From: Hamiltosporidium tvaerminnensis
Lineage: Eukaryota > Microsporidia > Dubosqiidae
Reading direction: 5' to 3'
Assembly: GCA_022605425.2 (NCBI GenBank)
Contig: JAKIMF020000013.1
Span: 558,001 to 622,000, forward strand
DNA: 64,000 nucleotides
The notes under the pieces: model-generated
What the model was told of the DNA's origin: nothing
Databases searched by the model: none
The model's input: the letters and a program-made list of their open reading frames with translations, nothing else
In this document: piece by piece, positions 45,641 through 61,490 of the stretch
Layout of the letters: each line of letters opens with the position of its first letter
Position numbering within the stretch: the first letter of the stretch is position 1
Position numbers and translations under genes: made by a program

Positions 45641-46010
45641 TGAGAATTAAAATGTCAATAGAAAACACTAAGAATGAGACAAATCAACCAGAAATTACAA
45701 TTGCATGTAAACGTAGAAATCAAGTTGATCTAATCAAATTGATCTACAAACGTACTTTCGAATCATTAACTTAGTTGTTAATTCACGTGATTTAGATCAA
45801 TGATCAAATCGATATGGTGTTCTAGTTACTTTGACATGTTCAAGTAACAAATTGGTGTTACATATGTTACTGCTCTGATGCAGATTTTGGAGGTTTTCCG
45901 TTGTTACTTTGGTTTCTTGTGCTGCTTTATTCATCGGGATTAAGTTATGGACTCAACGAGTCAATTGTGTGTGATTTGGATGTGACGTGTAATGGTATAT
46001 TTGTGCAACA
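45641..46010 (+). promoter_or_regulatory. Presumed rRNA promoter and external transcribed spacer
   Basis: Base composition rises in G+C over about 370 bp before the SSU. A run of ttgatct/agatcaa words (45,724-45,810) forms several short inverted repeats. Inferred from position only; the transcription start cannot be placed. Confidence 0.4.
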
Positions 46011-47305
46011 GGTTGATTCTGCCTGACGAGGATGCTTGTCTCTGGGATTAAGCCATGCAAGTCTGGTGAAGCGAAAGTGGAACTGCGAACGGCTCAGTAG
46101 AACGGTGATTATTTAATCGTGTAGGAAGGATAACCGCGGGAAACTGTGGCTAATAACACGAGTAAGACGCCGACCCATCAGTTTTATCGTACGGTAAGGG
46201 CGTACGATGGCTTTAACGGGTACGGGGGATCAGGGTTTGATTCCGGAGAGGGAGCCTGAGAAACGGCTACCAGGTCTAAGGACAGCAGCAGGCGCGAAAC
46301 TTGCCCAATTGGAGAGAGGCAGTTATGAGACGTATATTTTGTAACCGGGGTAGAATACCGGTGATTGACTGGAGGGCAAGTCTGGTGCCAGCAGCCGCGG
46401 TAATTCCAGCTCCAGGAGTGTCATAGTGCATTGCTGCATTTAAAAGGTCCGTAGTCAGTGTTGACAGGGATGCTAGAAGACACTTTCTTCATGGAGTGTA
46501 TTGGCATTCTAGGTTAGCATGTAGGAGCGGAAGAGGGCGACTGTATTGCGTAGCGAGAGGTGAAAGTTGACGACCTACGTAGGACAAACCGAAGCGAAAG
46601 CTGTCGTCCAGTACGTTTCCGGTGATCAAGGACGTAAGCCGGAGGAGCAAAGGTGATTAGAGACCCCTGTAGTTCCGGCCGTAAACTATGCCAACTGGGT
46701 GTTACGTAGTGGTACCCACGAGAAATCAAGTATATGGGCTATGGGGATAGTACGATCGCAAGATTGAAACTTGAAGAAATTGACGGAAGGACACCACCAG
46801 GAGTGGAGTGTGCGGCTTAATTTGACTCAACGCGGGACAACTTACCAGGGCCAGTTGTATGACGAATCTTTGATGAGTACGACTAAGTGGTGCATGGCCG
46901 TTCACAACATGTGAGGTGACTTTTAGGTTTATTGCTGTAATGTGTGAGACCCTCAGCTACGGCGACTGGGGACTATAAGTTTCAGGAAGGAGGGGGCTAT
47001 AACAGGTCTGTGATGCCCTTAGATGTTCTGGGCTGCACGCGCACTACAATGTTATTTCTAGGTATATTGTAAAGATAAAGGATAACTCGGTTGGGATTGC
47101 GTTCTGTAATGGACGCATGAACCAGGAATTCCTAGTAGTCGCGTGTCACTAACGGGCGACGACTGCGTCCCTGTTCTTTGTACACACCGCCCGTCGTTAT
47201 CTAAGATGGTGCTATGTTCGAAGAGGGTTTTCCTTCTGAGGACGTAGGATTAGATTGGATACAAGTCGTAACAAGGTTGCTGTAGGAGAACCTGCAGCAG
47301 GATCA
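46011..47305 (+). rRNA. SSU rRNA: Small-subunit rRNA, microsporidian type
   Basis: It begins GGTTGATTCTGCCTGACG, the standard microsporidian SSU start. Other universal landmarks: GTGCCAGCAGCCGCGGTAA at about 46,385, AAACTTGAAGAAATTGACGG at about 46,767, CGCGGGACAACTTACC at about 46,831, TGTACACACCGCCCGTCG at about 47,178 and the 3' GTAACAAGGTTGCTGTAGGAG. Length about 1.3 kb, far below the 1.8 kb of most eukaryotes, as expected for microsporidia. No break is visible in the conserved helices. Open frames on the opposite strand are incidental. Confidence 0.98.
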
Positions 47306-47343
47306 GTGATAGTACTTTTATTGTGTAGTTTTTTCATTTTAAA
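47306..47343 (+). other. Internal transcribed spacer
   Basis: About 38 bp, T-rich, between the SSU 3' end and the 5.8S-like start of the LSU. Exact limits uncertain by several bases. Confidence 0.7.
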
Positions 47344-49015
47344 CTCATACAAGGGATCACTTGGCTCCGTATCCGAGGAAGGCCGGAATAGTTTCCGAGA
47401 ACTAAGGCCGAACGGCATTTGTAAATGCCTGACTACCCCCTGGACTTAAGCATATTATTAAGGGGAGGAACAAAAACTAACTAGGATTTCTGTAGTAGCG
47501 GCGAGCGAACAAGAAATAGCCCCGAATGTAAGCCTCCGGGCATTGTTAAGATCGTCGTAACGAATTACCGGGACAGGTAAGCCATAGAGGGTGATAGCCC
47601 CGTAGTGACGAGTAATGGGCAGAGTAGGGTTGCTTGGTAATGCAGCCTGAAGAGGTGGTGGGTTCCATCTAAGGCTAAATATGAGCGGAGACCGATAGCG
47701 TAATAGTACAGCGATGGAAAGGTGAAAAGCTAAAAAGTGCAAAGACGTGAAATTGTATTGAGTATCCTGACAACAGGACCCGTCTTGAAACACGGACCAA
47801 GGAGTGCATCTGCATAGCAAGTTAAAGGGGGGTTTCCTTTAAGCGTAGCGAAAGCAGATATAGCTGTTCGGATGCGACCCGAAGGGCTGTGAACTACACC
47901 TGGCCAGGTTGAAGCCATTCGAAAGGATGGTGGAGGACCTAAACTTGTTCTGACGCGCAAATCGATGGTTTGAGCTGGGTGTAGGGGCGAAAGACCAATC
48001 GAACAGCCGGGTAGCTGGTTCCCATCGAAATGTCTCTCAGGACAGCAGACACAAGTTACTTAGTATTATGCGGTAGAGGAACGGCGGGATGAAAGGGGAG
48101 CAATCTCCACATACCGACGAACTGCGAACGTGTACGTGTTATTCTTGTTCTAAAGAATAGCGATTATATATGTGTCTAGTGGGCGCGTTCTGGTAAGCAG
48201 GACGTGCGAAGAGGGATCAACCTGACGTACTGATAAGGGGCCTAATCTGGTTTTTCTTAAGGCCGTAGATGAATTGTGACAGTAGGGCGGTGGCCATGGA
48301 GGTTGGCATCCGGTAAGAAACGTGTTGCAACGTACCTACCGAATTCATGTGCGCCGAAAATGGACGGTACAAGGCCAGACCCGATGCAGTACTTATAGGT
48401 AGATGGGCGTGGTGTATGTGCAGAAGGTTTACCGTGAGGTAAAGTGGAGCATACACTAGTGCTGATCTTGGTGGTAGTAGTTACAATTCGTGTGTGAATC
48501 GCGAAGGCTTCAGGAGAAGGGTTCTTCTAAGACTTCATAAGGAGAAGGTTAGCCGGTCCTGAGATCTCGACAGGGAATCGGGTTGATATTCCCGAGCCAT
48601 CTAGGTATTTGGCAACAGTAAATATGGTGTTTACGTCTTAGGCACGACAACAAGGAGGTACCCATTCCTTGTAGCAGTACTGTATGTAGCGTGTTGTACA
48701 GAGCAATACAGGCATATGCAATTGTCTTAGCTGGGATCCGTGAAAAAATACCTTTATGACCTTGATGACCGTACCGACCGCAGCAGGGCTCCGTACGGTG
48801 TATACCGGAAGCGATAGGACAAACGTTAGTTAGGGAATTCGGCAAATTAGATCCGTAACCTCGGGAAAAGGATTAGCTCTAAGGAATTAGAACTTTTAGT
48901 TACGGGGAATCCGACTGTTTAATAAAAACATAGCTTTGTGGTGGTGTAGTACGTGGACACAAAGTGAATTCTGCCCAGTGCCCAGCTGTTAAGACAGGTC
49001 GGGCTGTATACGCAG

Positions 49016-49069
<54 letters not shown>

Positions 49070-49166
49070 CCTAATTAGTGACGCGCACGAAAGGAGCAAC
49101 GAGATTCCCACTGTCCCGACTAACAACCTGCGAACCCACGAGCCAAGGGAACGGTCTTGGCTATGC

Positions 49167-49203
<37 letters not shown>

Positions 49204-49479
49204 GTGACGCCGGGGTCTTGTGCAGCTGTAGCAAGGTGGGGCAACTGAAAGACCACTAGCTGTGCAAGCGACCCGTATTTGTCAGATGGGGAGTTTGACT
49301 GGGGCGGTACATCTGCTAGACTACAACGCAGATGGCCTAAGGGTGGCTAACTTCGGAGAGAAACCGAGGGTGTAGTCCAAGGGCAAAAGCCACCCTGACG
49401 TATTACTACACGGTAATACGAGGGGAAACCCAGGCCTAGCGATCCCATTGCTTACAGAGCATCTAGCAATGGGTGACGT

Positions 49480-49511
<32 letters not shown>

Positions 49512-49615
49512 AGCCGAGCGACCATAGCGACGCTGCTTTTTGATTCTTCGATGTCGGCTCTTCCTATCATGGTGCAGCAGAAGGCACCTAGTGTTGGATT
49601 GTTCACCCACTAACA

Positions 49616-49653
<38 letters not shown>

Positions 49654-49962
49654 TAGTTTTACACTACTGCTACGGTACTAAGGGAGCAGATGCTAGTACG
49701 AAAGGAACGAATCTGCAGGACCTCTTGTCGTGCCTATATCTGGTAAGGTACGGGCTAAGCAACGTCCTGGCACGGAAGAGCTGAAGGCCTCTAAGCTTCA
49801 ACGTGGCCCTACTGTACTATCTAGCATGAAGACGACGTGCTTGGGTGCTGCAGCTGTAATCCACAAGATCGCGAGTGGATGAGGCTAGCAAGCACTCATG
49901 ACGAGAGATGATCACCACCTCCACGTGGTTCTCGTTGGGTAACGCCAAGAGTGATCAACAAC
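47344..49962 (+). rRNA. LSU rRNA: Large-subunit rRNA with fused 5.8S region
   Basis: It starts with a 5.8S-like CAAGGGATCACTTGGCTCC and continues without ITS2. Conserved elements: the GTAACGGCGGGAGTAACTATGA region at about 49,020-49,045 (here preceded by a shortened stem), the peptidyl-transferase segment ACCACAGGGATAACTGGCTTG at about 49,488, CTTCGATGTCGGCTCTTCC at about 49,547, and the sarcin-ricin loop AGTACGAAAGGAAC at about 49,692. The 3' end is estimated about 270 nt after the sarcin-ricin loop by analogy with yeast. The last roughly 60 nt (49,900-49,957) recur in the retroposon at 50,676. One copy only is present in the window. Confidence 0.96.
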
Positions 49963-50660: not shown

Positions 50661-50675
50661 ATATACAATCATAGA
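50661..50675. repeat. 15-bp target-site duplication (left) of chimeric retroposon
   Basis: ATATACAATCATAGA, identical to 51,378-51,392. Confidence 0.92.
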
Positions 50676-51377
50676 GACGAGAGATGATCACCACCTCCAC
50701 GTGGTTCTCGTTGGGTAATGCTAAGAGTGATCAAGCAAAACCCCTTTACGTTTTATGTTACGACGGAATGTACTATGGGTTTACGTGGCGTTAAGCGCCG
50801 TTCCAACGGGAACAGCAAGTTGCTCAATCGGTGAGCATATTTCTTCTGGGGCGATACAAAGAGGTAAATTCGACTGTGACGCAACGAGATTCTCGGTTTA
50901 CCTAGGCACTTGTCGATGCTAAAACCCTTACTTTAACATCAAGATGAGTCTACCTGAATGTGATTGGATCGAAGATTCCATTAGGAATCAAATTGTGTTT
51001 GAAATCTTCTTATACTAAGGAAAAGAAAGGTATAAAAAGTGCTTTTGGAAGGGGAGTGGCAAGCTGCTGGGCTGCAGCAAATTTGTCCGGCACAGTTAAA
51101 GACTTAACAAATCAGAAATGATATGTTGAAGACTTGACGTGCCGGACGTTAATGTGTAAGTGTGGGATTTTAGGGATTTTTATGTGACCTTCTAGAACCG
51201 AAGTCCAAATGTGGATATGGTGGCTGTACACAGTCGGGTCGGTTTTATTGGATTTTTGTTTTTGAGTGTGGTGCATGGTATGGAAATGAATAGCTTAGTT
51301 TCCCTTTAAAAACAATACAACGAGTAGTGCTGAAAACTTTTTATCAATAAAGCCGAATTTTATTTTATTTTATTTTA
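50676..51377 (+). mobile_element. Chimeric retroposon: LSU rRNA 3' end + tRNA-like promoter-like segment + LINE 3' end
   Basis: A 702-bp insertion exactly bounded by 15-bp duplications. Part 1 (50,676 to about 50,734) matches LSU rRNA 49,900-49,957 with three differences. Part 2 (about 50,735-50,930) has no match in the window; it contains TTGCTCAATCGGTGAGC (a tRNA D-arm/A-box-like word) and about 45 bp on AAATTCGACTG (B-box-like). Part 3 (about 50,930-51,125) aligns with the 3' coding end of the APE-type LINE at 61,340-61,480; both encode a G-R-x-x-A-S-C word. Then comes a ~240-bp 3' UTR ending ATCAATAAAGCCG and (TTTTA)n. It has no complete ORF. The layout (rRNA head, body, LINE-derived tail, simple-repeat end, long TSD) is that of a SINE or of a template-switch chimera made by LINE reverse transcriptase. 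Confidence 0.88.
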
Positions 51378-51392
51378 ATATACAATCATAGA
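51378..51392. repeat. 15-bp target-site duplication (right) of chimeric retroposon
   Basis: ATATACAATCATAGA, identical to 50,661-50,675. Confidence 0.92.
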
Positions 51393-56259: not shown

Positions 56260-56596
56260 TTGAAAATAAATCCGGGAGTAAAAATATATTTATAAATCGA
56301 GAAATAGAAACCAAATGTATGACGACTATTGTGTTGTAAGGCGCCCATGGGCAAAAGAAAAATATCGGGAGCGGTTGAAAATCGCAAAAAATCAAGATGT
56401 GAGAATACGGGTGTGAAGAGTAGGAATTTCGACACTTTGTTTCCAGCTCATCGAGGACTAGCCACCCTCGAGTTGTGAGCCCAATCGACTGTTTTTTTCG
56501 GCGTCTTCGAAACAGGAGGAGTGTGCGGCAGCCACGCACAAGGAGAGTAAAAAGTGTACAGATAATAGGAATGTAAAGAGTTTTTTTGGGACAAGC

Positions 56597-56773
56597 ATGC
56601 GAAAGCACACACGGGATGAGCCGCTGACCAGCCAGCGAAGTTTCCCGGAGGAGAAAGAGGCACAGACTTTGTCTGTTCTTTATGCACTTGCTTCTAAGAA
56701 AATAACACTTCTTGAAAAAAGAGTGGAAAAATTAGAAGAAGAGGAAAAGAGATACAAAAAACTCTTATGTTGA
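56597..56773 (+). CDS. LINE ORF1-like small coiled-coil protein
   Basis: 58 codons from ATG to TGA. Polar N-terminus, then a strong heptad-type helix (LASKKITLLEKRVEKLEEEE) such as mediates trimerisation in LINE ORF1 proteins. Its stop overlaps the next frame's start as ATGTTGA, the arrangement used for termination-reinitiation. Alternatively the two frames were once one and a frameshift separated them. Confidence 0.5.
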   Translation: MRKHTRDEPLTSQRSFPEEKEAQTLSVLYALASKKITLLEKRVEKLEEEEKRYKKLLC

Positions 56774-57583
56774 CAAAGACCAACTCGATTGCTTTAGAGG
56801 TACTCTTTAAAGAAATTGAGAAGCTACATAAAGTAGCTAAAAAGTCGCGTAGGTGCCGTACTCACAAGTGCGTGATAACGGCAGAAGCACCTGTTTACTC
56901 GGTTAGGCTAGAGGCAGGAGCCAGAGACCCTCAGGCTGATCCGGCAGCCAGTGAGTGTGTCTGCAACGCTGCAGAACTAACAGAGAAACCCATCGAGCAG
57001 AATTTAGTGGTATATGAGGCGAAATCTCAGTCTTTCGGGCCAACTTTGTCCGCACGATCTGCAAAGGCAAAAGCTTGGTCATTGGATAAACAGATCGTGT
57101 TAAGGACTGGCAGTTCTACTGATCTGACTGCAAATGCTGTTTACTCTTTTGCTGTTGGAGTCTGCCCAGCGGAAGTGCTTTTCTGCAACGCAGCAGAATC
57201 TCAAGGTTTACAAATTGAACGTGCAATGAATGTAAGTCATCAAGAGGCGGGCTTGTACAATGTCGTACGGGCAATACCACACTGCCTCCGATAGAAATCC
57301 TTGTTCTATCGAAAAAAATTTACCTGAAAAGACTTCCGTAAGTGCTTCGGGAAAAGGTCTTAAGGATAATAATAAGAAATTATTTGATTGCAAAGCAACT
57401 GGTAACCCAGCCAGTAAACCGAGAGCCGTCAAATTGCAGACTGCTAAAAAGCCTGCCTTCGATCGTACTAAGGCACCTTCGAAGCAGAGTAGAGGGAAAA
57501 TTAACCTAAACAGAGCACAGTGTGAGGATGTTGTGCAAGGCAAATCACCATTTGTCTTGAATAATTTGTGCTTCTTTACTTAG
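56767..57583 (+). pseudogene. LINE ORF1-like region in two overlapping frames
   Basis: The frame 56,767-57,294 (175 codons) runs on from the coiled-coil helix (EVLFKEIEKLHKVAKKSRRC). It contains a diverged internal duplication in which a VYS...CNAAE block appears twice (about residues 44-70 and 129-150). It is continued in another frame at 57,260-57,583, Lys/Ser-rich and basic, as expected for a nucleic-acid-binding protein. The frame change lies between about 57,260 and 57,294. No zinc knuckle is visible. Remnants of coding continue to about 57,890 (GLLELLVNANSVDKVKAIFTGF...). Confidence 0.5.
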
Positions 57584-58300
57584 TTAGAGTTAAAGTAAAC
57601 AAACCCGCTTATTTAAGAGCAACTAGAGAACGGGGGCGTTAAATCTTACTACGTAAAGCACGTAGGCTTCACTAAGGAAGGCCTGTTAGAGTTGCTTGTG
57701 AATGCTAACAGTGTGGATAAGGTTAAAGCCATTTTTACAGGCTTTAAAGATGTAAGACCTTTGATAACTATCTTAACAGAGGTAGTCTCGAAGAGATTGG
57801 AAGGCAGTTATCTGACCTTAAGTTCAGACTTTCATGGGTCGAGCGACTTAAAGATAACCCGCCGGTTAGGAGGTTTCTTAGCATTCTGAAGCATATTTCG
57901 GCTCAGAATGCCTTTCAAGAAGCCTCGAAAATCTTCTACGGACTAGAAGATGTGGTACTTGAGGAGCCAAAGAGCTTCTCTAGCCTATAGTCAGGACTGT
58001 CTGAACTGTTGACACCTGCCAACAGATAAAGCCGTGCAAAGCAAGCCCTGCGGTATACTTTGTGTGGGGTGTACCGCATAGGCATCGTAGTGTTTTTGCT
58101 GAAACACTACAGGCGAAAGGTTCCAAAGGTACGTCTGTCAAGCGAGTTATCAAGCGAGATGGACGTAGACGACTTGATGGGACTGTTGAGAGTGGGATAG
58201 ACCCGGAAACAGTGCAAGCTGTGAGTAGGAAACATCTTAGGTACTGCAAAACCCATACACTAGGGAGAAAAAAGTCTGTCAGAATTTGCACGGAATCGTA

Positions 58301-58980
58301 TAGTAATCTTAGATTACTTACGCTAAATGTAAATTTCTTTAGATCAAAACGAGAGGTAGTTCTAATGCTAACTGGTAAACTCTACCCAGACATTCTGTGT
58401 CTTCAAATGACACTACGCTACATAGGGAGTGCTCGAAATGTTATGCCGGAATACAAGGTGATGTAAAGTTTTTTAACAAGGAGAAAAAAGATGAGTAGAG
58501 AACTGATTTCTGCTGTGCGTCGTAATTTAGATTTTACGCTATCTTCAGTTAAAGTACATCCTAACTTCTTGGCTGGTATTGTTTGTGGCAAAAAAGCATC
58601 TTGTGGCTCGTTTAAATTGCTTGTTGTTAACGTGTACATTCCTCCAAAATGTTCCCTATACAGCAACAGAGCGGAAACGCTCGAAGCTCTAGGATCTTTT
58701 CTTGTTAGCGAAAACAAGAAGAACGGTTTGGATGATATTCTAGTCATGAGCGATTGGAATATGACACCAGAAGAGGCTGCTAGGTTCCTGGCTGTCAACA
58801 ACCTCTATTGCACAATAAATGGTTATTCGAAGCACCGCGAGCTACAAGTGCAGCAGCACACGGTGCCAATAGAAGCATATACTACTGGCTGTTTCTTAAA
58901 AGAGAATGGGCGGAGGTAGTTAAAGGCCACAGGAAATGGGATATATCGGATCACCTTCCTGTAACTATTGACGTTAGGGT
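58301..58980 (+). pseudogene. LINE apurinic-type endonuclease domain, frameshifted
   Basis: Recognisable motifs in order: LRLLTLNVNFF (N of the first motif), LYPDILCLQMT where the catalytic Glu of LQET is Met, VNVYIPP, DDILVMSDWNMTP (catalytic D and N), and ISDHLPVTID (catalytic SDH). Spread over at least three frames (breaks near 58,460 and 58,910). This domain normally nicks target DNA to prime reverse transcription. The lost Glu and the shifts make it inactive. Confidence 0.85.
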
Positions 58981-59395
58981 AAACACGCTCACACGAGCTG
59001 TACGCAAGAAAAATATCTTCTTTCGCAAAATAGCGGAGCGTTCACGTGCCGATTAGCTCGTAAGCGGTCCTGACCTGAAACAGTTGTTGTCCTAATATGA
59101 ATCCCGGAATTTATGTGGACGAAACTGTTTAATGTGGTCTTGAGATACATTTTCAGATGGAAAATGTTTTTTTCTGCCTTGTAAGCTCAAAAAAACTATT
59201 CACGATATACAAAGAGTAGCTTTCGTATGAAATGCTCGAGCTTATCCGAATGCCTAAGCTGACCTCAAACGAAAGTGCGAGAAATGTAAGCGTCTACAAG
59301 CGGCAGTTGAGAATTTAGTGGGCACAAAAAGGTATTGCGGCGGCATCAACTGCTGCATGAGAGACGTGTAGCAGTGGACCAGAAGGTCTGCTGGA
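58981..59395 (+). pseudogene. Linker between endonuclease and reverse transcriptase, decayed
   Basis: No long frame; stops in all frames, though composition stays LINE-like (richer G+C). It is probably the former linker and the N-terminus of the RT. Confidence 0.45.
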
Positions 59396-60947
59396 ATGCC
59401 CAAATGCTCGGCTGCCAATCGCACAGTTTTAGATGGAAAAAGCCAAATTGCTTCGGATGAGCTGACAGTGTTGCAGGTCTGGTACAACCACTTTCGTTCC
59501 CTAGAAACAATGAATGATGAGTTACAGAGCAAAGACACTCAAATGGAGTGTCTTATTGAGGATAACAACGCTCATTATAATGATTTGATTGCTTGGAAAG
59601 AGGTTATTTCAGCGCTGCACGAGTCAGCAAACAACAAAGCATGTGCTTTAGATGAGGTACCAGTAGAATTGTACAAAGCTCTACTAATGGATACTCATGG
59701 CGTAAGTCTGATGGCACAGCACATTTTACATGTGCTGAATGAGGCCTGGACAAATAGAATACCTGACAGCTGGAGAGTGTCAGTCATAGTACCGCTAGCG
59801 AAGAAAGGTGATTTACGAAAACCTGGAAACTACCGTGAAATATGTCTGATAAACACTCTTCTTAAACTGCTGTGTAAGGATGTGGAACGCCGAATGCGTT
59901 TGTATGCTGAGAATAATAACCTCTTGTGCCGGGAACAAGCTGGTTTTCGTACTCGAGAGGAATGTGTTGCCAAGGTGGCAACTCTTTTAGAAATTCAAAG
60001 GAGAAGATTTATTCGAGGTAGAGAGACTGTTTGCCTATTATTCGATTTCGAAAAGGCTTACGATAGAGTTCCTCATGATCTACTCCTTTTGAGACTGAAA
60101 GAGCAAGGCTATTCCGGAAAACTTCTGAGATTCCTTAAAGATCTGTACACTGATATAAAAATAAGTGTCAAGGTGGGCGATAAAACAACAAGCCTATTCC
60201 TATACAGTATCGGTCTCCGCCAAGGCTGCCCGTTATCACCTCTGTTATTCGATCTTTATATCGATTACATCTTTAGAGTCTTAATGGTATAGCATGCAAA
60301 GGTCTTAACTATAAGTTTCAAGGTACATTGTTTGCCGATGACACTGTTCTGTTCGATGCGATGTGGCTGCCTTTAAACTCAGTATAGATAAAGTGACGAG
60401 GTGGTGTAAGACGTGTGGAATGCGTGTGAATATAGATAAGCGTAGGTTGTTATTTTTACCATGTCTTAAAGGTAACGTAATGATAGGATAAAAAGCATTC
60501 CCAGTGGTCGAAACCTACAGATACCTAGGATTTATTTTAGACCGCACGTTTTCTCTGAAAGAAATGCTCAATGGGAGAAAAAAAGCTGTGTTTGCGGTCC
60601 GAAAAAATGCTATGCCATTCCTCTGCAGATCAGAAGTTCCGCTCTATTTTAAACTTCTGATCATAAAAGCATGCATTATACCAATTGTAATGTATGGGAG
60701 CGAATTGTGGGGAATGAGCAAGGTCAGAATAGTATCTGTAGGTTGCGGCGTTACACGTTCTTTGGCAGCAGCTTTTGGATGTCGAGAGAATTTTTCCCAG
60801 CTGGTAGCATTCAGAGAGTGTGACATCCAGCCTTTATATGAAAAGGCAGCTATGTCACGTGTAAGAGGCTTCTTGAAATGGCAAGAAAGCAGAACGATCA
60901 TCCGGGACTTGCTCAATGGTAAGTTTACAGCGAGAAAGAGAACGTGA
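59396..60947 (+). pseudogene. LINE reverse transcriptase domain, frameshifted
   Basis: The frame 59,396-60,292 carries the palm and fingers: KACALDEVPVELYK, IPDSWRVSVIVPLAKKGD, EQAGFRTREECVAK, motif A FDFEKAYDRVP, motif B GLRQGCPLSPLLFDLYID. A one-base shift near 60,280 moves the catalytic FADDTVLFD (60,331-60,357) to another frame, which stops soon after. The thumb region resumes at 60,504 (VVETYRYLGFILD, PIVMYGSELWG) and runs to 60,947. All RT motifs and the YxDD-equivalent FADD are intact in sequence, so the inactivation is fairly recent. Confidence 0.93.
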
Positions 60948-61490
60948 GTTACTCAAACCCGAATCTGGATGAAAGCTTATACTGGAAGTCTTTTATCGGG
61001 TTTGAGTAACAAAAGTAGTGGCCTTCTAATCAAAGAGGATATTGTTAAAAGGCAAGGCCGAGCTGATAAGTCAGTTATAAGTGGCTTACGTAGGCTTTTT
61101 GGTCTTAATAGTGGGTATAAGTGGATCTACGCAGAACTAAATAACAGGGTGTTAGCTAGCAGTATTAAGATGCTGCGTAATTTAGAATAGGACTGGTGAA
61201 ATTTAGTCCGCAACTGGAAGCTTTAAGAAGATTACCGAATAAGTATAGGGAACGCTGTCCATGTTGCGAGGAACCAGGCTGAGAAATTTAAGCCATTTAG
61301 TGTTTGTGTTAAGAGCGCAAGTGGAGCGATGGATGTTCAAAGATCAGATTACAAGAAAAATTGTAACATGTTTAAAATCTTCTGATACTGTAGGGAATTC
61401 AAGGCATCAAGATACTCTTGGAAGGGAAATGGCAAGCTGCCGCAGTTCTAAACAACGAATTGTCATACCTGACCTGAAGATCATCAATCG
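60948..61490 (+). pseudogene. LINE C-terminal domain with CCHC-type zinc motif, broken
   Basis: An open stretch at 60,969-61,190 is followed by a region where one frame gives RCPCCEEPG and another gives SHLVFVLRAQVERWMF; together they form the usual C-terminal CPxC...HLVF.C..W finger of LINEs. After it the GREMASCRSS segment aligns with the retroposon at 51,052. 3' of about 61,490 nothing matches that retroposon's 3' UTR. Confidence 0.7.

Follow-up and report, generated by a model that had tools for sequence, protein, structure and literature searches.

An HDV-like ribozyme candidate at the LSU rRNA 3' border and at the head of a small rDNA-spacer retroposon family in Hamiltosporidium tvaerminnensis

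Analysis of 64,000 nt of Hamiltosporidium tvaerminnensis DNA (the window, a part of contig C17) revealed that a block of 59 nt directly downstream of the LSU rRNA gene was also the head of a 702-bp retroposon in the rDNA spacer. Its modelled structure fits an HDV-like self-cleaving ribozyme candidate; in the rDNA the predicted cut coincided with the 3' border of the LSU, and in the retroposon with the element's first base. Taken as a whole, it is probable in our judgement that such a ribozyme follows the LSU in every visible rDNA unit and that the same ribozyme heads a non-autonomous spacer retroposon. The organism is apparently a parasite of water fleas, and the genome searched comprised 21,638,905 bp in 17 contigs; the published assembly was given as 17 contigs and 21.64 Mb in the passages of PMC10542269 used here.

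The rDNA border and the retroposon family

The SSU rRNA gene was located at 46,006-47,308 of the window (+ strand; Rfam RF02542, 1208 bits) and the LSU rRNA gene at 47,413-49,899 (+ strand), where 49,899 is the mature 3' end predicted from the Rfam model. The match to that model (RF02543) covered 47,413-49,901 and reached the model end, with the last paired base at 49,897. Because the model ended at 49,901 and its last pair at 49,897, the block from 49,900, whose start lies 2 nt beyond that pair, adjoined the LSU downstream and was not the LSU terminus. The earlier note on this DNA had described the head of the insertion as a match to terminal LSU rRNA; the match was real, with 57 of 59 positions identical between 49,900-49,958 and the first 59 nt of the insert, but the matched sequence lay just downstream of the LSU. 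A head derived from mature rRNA, as in an rRNA-headed SINE, was thus not found, since the shared block began beyond the last LSU pair.

The insertion was bounded by perfect 15-bp direct repeats, ATATACAATCATAGA, at 50,661-50,675 and 51,378-51,392, with 702 bp between them (50,676-51,377; all features on the + strand). The duplication was not a chance repeat, because the target site was found uninterrupted, free of the insert, in all five of the other rDNA units compared. The element began with the ribozyme candidate (50,676-50,734) and continued into a body (50,735-50,995) that matched only retroposon copies in its own genome and no Rfam family at E<1. The LINE-derived 3' part (50,996-51,377) contained a LINE reading-frame end, a 3'UTR and a TTTTA tail. 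This part aligned with the LINE of the window at 61,369-61,440 (78% over 73 nt), with a second alignment of 71% over 105 nt, and had a longer match, 3'UTR included, to the LINE copy of contig C1 (67% over 335 nt). Both the 15-bp duplications around a 702-bp insertion and the LINE-like 3' third with its TTTTA end, as noted earlier, were therefore borne out. No tRNA head was found for the retroposon (an ARAGORN run with the bacterial code over the whole window gave no tRNA), and no Rfam match to a tRNA, 5S, 7SL or other Rfam-known Pol III head was obtained within the element.

A whole-genome search with a 732-base query yielded at least 30 match rows. Full-length copies were found in two pairs: that of C17, whose members lie on the arms of an inverted repeat and match the whole query at 100% identity, and that of C10, at 98%. 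The remaining matches were a damaged copy on one arm of C14, a 186-nt 3' piece in the C1 pair, LSU ends, and shorter LINE-like matches to the 3' part. The C10 insertion was flanked by a 14-bp duplication, GGTAGATAATAAGC, so that the two full-length insertions had an identical first base but different duplications. Both were spacer insertions in LSU sense, at distances of 0.8 and 1.6 kb downstream of the LSU; all the retroposon and LINE insertions inspected in the rDNA spacers of C17, C10, C14 and C1 had this orientation. Empty sites were compared in seven units, namely both arms of C17, C10 and C14 plus C1b, with the C1a pair left out. The C10 site was uninterrupted in four of the five other units, the stretch of the fifth (C1b) ending inside the site, and the C14 site was uninterrupted in all six, with a C14 duplication that was not clearly readable.

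In the C14 copy (L005:1501-2100), the 5' half was broken up by many small gaps (585 aligned nt contained 37 gap openings and 7 mismatches), and the 3' half was nearly intact; the altered half may reflect decay, a derived subfamily or an assembly error. In the C1 spacer, the 186-nt 3' piece (L013:9093-9276) had the right border of the C17 insertion and its left border elsewhere in the spacer, as if the head had been removed by deletion. It was not counted as a further insertion because its right border matched the C17 site.

These results support a very small family of LINE-tailed retroposons, with insertions at three sites, two of them full-length. A one-off template-switch chimera, which the earlier note had left as an option, was ruled out since the element had inserted at three separate sites and the two full-length insertions had different duplications, and a remnant of the rDNA repeat was ruled out because the sites were empty in other units. 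The proposal of an rRNA-headed SINE family thus survived as to the family and fell as to the mature-rRNA head, the shared block following the LSU. The ten or more copies with the same junction that had been named as proof of a family were not found, the count being three insertions.

The likely partner is an APE-type LINE. A decayed copy at 56,347-61,440 of the window (+ strand), in the same orientation as the LSU, was 90.9% identical over 5143 nt to the C1 LINE (L013:3484-8622), which was flanked by a duplication of about TATATTTATCCCTTTA. The protein of the C1 LINE carried an endonuclease domain, Exo_endo_phos (2.2e-11), before the reverse transcriptase, RVT_1 (5.9e-33), and its nearest solved chains were LINE-1 ORF2. 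R2-type proteins have the endonuclease after the reverse transcriptase, and this order was not found here. The two proteins closest to the local LINE were named from H. magnivora and H. tvaerminnensis. Retroposon and LINE copies had a 3'UTR hairpin in common (51,195-51,245 of the window, + strand), as folded from 11 of 13 aligned rows, with two mirror copies left out and one other mirror copy kept. Column pair 43-48 was G-C in five sequences, A-U in five and broken in one, and 4 of 18 pairs showed at least one both-sided change with pairing kept; the covariation term was small (-0.24), and several pairs were broken in the two most distant rows. With this G-C/A-U exchange between retroposon and LINE, the hairpin is a possible recognition site of the reverse transcriptase. 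A ribozyme borne by the LINE itself was also considered, and rejected for the C1 LINE: this copy started at its coding ATG, no ribozyme was found at this 5' end, and even a loose HDV descriptor matched L013 only at the LSU end.

Structure, scores and conservation of the ribozyme candidate

In the copy directly after the LSU (49,900-49,958, + strand), P1 was formed by 49,900-49,906 with 49,930-49,936, P2 by 49,909-49,915 with 49,951-49,957, and P3 by 49,917-49,919 with 49,927-49,929; L3 occupied 49,920-49,926, and the candidate catalytic C was 49,945. The 59-nt layout thus consisted of a 7-bp P1 opening with a G-U pair, a 7-bp P2, a 3-bp P3, the loop UCCACGU and a two-pair P1.1. Every pair of this nested double pseudoknot (P1/P2/P3/P1.1) was present in the four sequence variants, the broken C14 head being left out. 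The J4/2 segment was CCAAG in nine of nine rDNA copies and CUAAG in four of four intact retroposon heads. The residues of an HDV-type active site were present (G1-U37, L3 UCCACGU and C46-N-A-A); the C followed by N-A-A in J4/2, the U and G of L3 and the G-U pair at the cut are those to which we take the active-site roles to belong. The P4 helix, which is usual in HDV-like ribozymes and not strictly needed, was absent, with no room for it between nt 40 and 45. A reverse wobble between the L3 G and a U is described in passages of PMC3774820. The minimum for an HDV-like ribozyme was given as about 50 nt with five conserved bases in passages of PMC4870747, and as about 60 nt with six conserved bases in those of PMC8256844.

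Searched alone, the block at 49,900 scored 24.9 bits with RF02682 (E 0.005) and 26.4 bits with RF00094 (E 0.029), and the block at 50,676 scored 27.3 bits (E 0.0014) and 25.1 bits (E 0.05), respectively. Independently of the structure modelled here, the two HDV families were the top of four Rfam matches at 49,900 and of three at 50,676, and P1 started exactly at these positions; when the complete insert was scanned, RF02682 had an E of 0.0065. These best matches, to HDV-F-prausnitzii (RF02682) and HDV_ribozyme (RF00094), spanned the full length of the models, the P4 region being reduced to nothing. The candidate differs from both families in scoring below gathering (24.9-27.3 bits against cut-offs of 44 and 50), in having no P4 and in lying at an rRNA 3' border, and a gathering-level Rfam scan of the whole window reported no ribozyme. 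Over the whole 21.6-Mb genome, RF02682 gave 13 rows at E<=10, in a run in which 61 of 553 first-look candidates were scored: nine LSU 3' ends and four retroposon heads, with E-values of 0.05-0.74. RF00094 and RF01787 gave no matches over the whole genome. At E<=10, RF02682 also produced matches, all below the cut-off, in 8 of the 14 prokaryote genomes that served as controls. Because of these matches in the controls, the E-values and the fraction of candidates scored, the Rfam scores alone are no proof; the argument for a ribozyme is that all 13 rows sit at two kinds of RNA border. No exact match to the ribozyme core was found in viral contigs.

A loose structural descriptor matched twice in the real window, compared with 49 matches in 60 window shuffles and 128 in 150, and it gave one unrelated match each in four of the foreign loci (L016, L021, L028 and L036). 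It was discarded as evidence, being too permissive and commonly matched by chance. The strict descriptor, which demanded the HDV-type L3 (YCNNYGN), a leading G and J4/2 CNAA, was written after the candidate had been seen, partly from the Rfam consensus lines. Its two matches in the window were those at 49,900 and 50,676, and it matched none of the 13 foreign loci, even with P1/P2 relaxed to 6/5 pairs. When it required seven pairs in P1 and at least six in P2, 150 window shuffles gave one match, 4000 shuffles of the 3.9-kb rDNA none, and 20,000 shuffles of the local 180 nt one.

The conserved block ended at the last base of the ribozyme, because the mean pairwise identity of the nine rDNA units was 0.996 within it, as in the last 100 nt of the LSU (0.996), and 0.798 in the next 59 nt. 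The nine units were 98-100% identical through nt 59; among the five loci, the ribozyme had an identity of 1.000 and the next 59 nt of 0.759, and further spacer blocks ranged from 0.69 to 0.86. The intact retroposon heads also diverged from the rDNA after nt 59. All four variable positions of the four sequence variants fell within the 13 of 59 positions outside the helices and core motifs (p = 0.0016, for a core/free split set after the candidate had been seen, with few events and without the broken C14 head). One rDNA copy (L012:7815, the minus arm of C10) had a G to A change at nt 40, outside the pairs. The minimum-energy fold of the rDNA copy (-15.4) was another structure, as against -8.7 for P1+P3 and -7.7 for P2; shuffle z-scores for nested folding were -0.47 to 0.06, and a P1/P3-like hairpin appeared in the minimum-energy fold of two of three pieces in one run and one of four in another. 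The modelled structure was thus not favoured by nested folding energies, which appear uninformative and neither help nor hurt much.

Known relatives and alternative explanations

In passages of PMC12449221, the rDNA of H. tvaerminnensis was described as ten operons at five locations, in tail-to-tail pairs with LINEs between. The same arrangement of pairs with intervening LINEs was seen here, with nine LSU 3' ends visible in the genome sequence against the ten operons reported. The words "ribozyme" and "SINE" did not occur in the main text of that paper, and the titles and opening abstracts of open-licence literature gave no description of a ribozyme positioned to make an LSU 3' end, nor of an HDV-like or self-cleaving ribozyme in microsporidia like the one described here.

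The closest parallels were found in R2 and SIDE elements, whose 5'-terminal HDV-like ribozymes cut them out of rRNA co-transcripts, according to passages of PMC3774820 and PMC3414825. As in the retroposon here, the R2 SIDEs and R2/R1 hybrid SIDEs of Drosophila combine a 5' HDV-like ribozyme, a LINE 3' end and residence in the rDNA; the hybrids have 14-bp duplications, as found here, and processing from the rRNA co-transcript has been proposed for SIDEs, as it is for the retroposon (passages of PMC3414825). The retroposon likewise joins a 5' ribozyme, modelled from structure, to a LINE 3' end, and there was more than one independent insertion with a target-site duplication, both full-length ones having empty sites. 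However, SIDEs in the same passages are inserted inside the 28S, at its R1 or R2 site, whereas the copies with intact heads here lie in the spacer. The ribozymes of SIDEs derive from R2, while the candidate here is the sequence that follows the LSU in the host rDNA, and the likely donor LINE is APE-type and microsporidian, unlike in SIDEs. The R2 ribozyme itself cuts the rRNA co-transcript near the 5' junction and has the same layout of P1, L3/P3 and P1'; in the passages of PMC3774820, it cuts at its own junction or in the 28S up to 36 nt upstream, and not at the LSU 3' end as predicted here. Neither an R2 protein nor an R2 site is present here, unlike in the R2 retrotransposon. The L1Tc/NARTc elements of trypanosomes likewise include a non-autonomous retroposon headed by an HDV-like ribozyme, but the L1Tc LINE carries the ribozyme too, in contrast to the C1 LINE, and no rRNA link appears in the passages of PMC8256844, unlike for the retroposon here.

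By analogy, the retroposon fits the R2/SIDE scheme in its rDNA location, its sense orientation, its first base at the predicted cut and its LINE 3' end; its copies, which are LSU-sense, may be co-transcribed with the rRNA. Animal 28S- or 5S-headed SINEs are short retroposons with rDNA-region sequence and a LINE-type tail, their head being rRNA proper. The head of the retroposon lies outside the LSU by the Rfam model, and the element resembles the ribozyme-headed SIDEs more than these SINEs.

Two bacterial-labelled MAG contigs among the foreign loci, L025 (JAUNVD010000044.1) and L033 (CAMDZK010000008.1), contained LSU rRNA genes that were called microsporidia-like from 74-77% identity and short length, and are likely contamination. 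By alignment, T-rich sequence followed the terminal helix of both. Neither LSU end matched an HDV family at E<=1, where 25 bits would have been barely enough for RF02682 to be listed and too little for RF00094, and neither was matched by the strict descriptor. The LSU border of L025 is uncertain, because the Rfam end (2862) lay further downstream than that of the alignment. The other 11 foreign loci, scanned with the strict descriptor, gave no match. Since L025 and L033 show none, a ribozyme after the LSU is probably not general among microsporidia-like LSU genes, as judged from these sequences.

Three other explanations of the shared 59 nt were weighed. It is unlikely, although the least so of the three, that the ribozyme belongs to the retroelement, the head of a copy having been left at the LSU 3' border and maintained as the rDNA units homogenise, without contributing to LSU maturation. 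HDV-like ribozymes are indeed known at retroposon 5' ends (passages of PMC3774820 and PMC3414825), and retroposons and LINEs recur in this rDNA spacer; however, within the same units the conservation stops at the last base of the ribozyme and gives way to a divergent spacer. By eye, no tail or duplication follows the rDNA ribozyme, the C1 LINE has no ribozyme at its 5' end, and target-primed insertion usually leaves 3' ends rather than 5' ends alone.

Decidedly less probable is another structured RNA signal, such as one for Pol I termination or enzyme-cut 3' processing, captured by retroposons. The position just after the LSU and the sharp end of conservation would suit an enzyme-cut processing signal, but the HDV-type core would be left unexplained, as would the first base of both full-length insertions, which equals the predicted post-cut base. 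Slightly less credit still is given to an ordinary rRNA-headed SINE or chimera, in which the shared block would be LSU end or trailer and its HDV-like shape a coincidence. The sub-threshold Rfam scores, the unremarkable nested folding and the chance matches to the loose descriptor all speak for coincidence. On the other side stand the rarity of the strict descriptor in local shuffles (1 of 20,000), the fact that each predicted cut falls on an end defined independently of it (the end of the LSU model and the insertion junction), and a shared block that stops, in the rDNA as in the retroposon, with the last base of the ribozyme; more than one insertion also argues against a chimera.

Proposed mechanism and significance

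The ribozyme in the pre-rRNA would cut just before its own first G, so that the LSU would end 2 nt beyond its last helix and the trailer would be set free. In a read-through transcript, the retroposon's own ribozyme would cut as well, giving an RNA that begins exactly at the first base of the retroposon. An APE-type LINE with the shared 3'UTR hairpin and tail, presumably through its own enzyme, would copy this RNA by target-primed reverse transcription, and such copying would produce the target-site duplications of 14-15 bp; the insertions and their common 3' end were observed. The rDNA ribozyme is the probable source of the head, as the cleaved trailer RNA would start with the same G, and this trailer RNA may have been joined to the LINE 3' end by template jumping.

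On the structural model, the ribozyme is likely the maker of the LSU 3' end. The chances appear evenly balanced for the fuller account, in which the LSU 3' end of Hamiltosporidium is made by an HDV-like ribozyme and not by nucleases, and the retroposon captured this host ribozyme and releases itself from read-through rRNA. The comparison with known systems suggests that what is new is a candidate ribozyme at the end of the LSU itself.

Viruses, retroelements and a small number of host genes are known to carry HDV-like ribozymes. If the ribozyme is fixed at every visible LSU end, the formation of an rRNA 3' end in a eukaryote would have been handed to a self-cleaving RNA, which, if true, would be a new route of rRNA maturation. 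A retroposon that arose by picking up a host ribozyme would likewise, if true, be the reverse of the usual view that ribozymes spread with retroelements.
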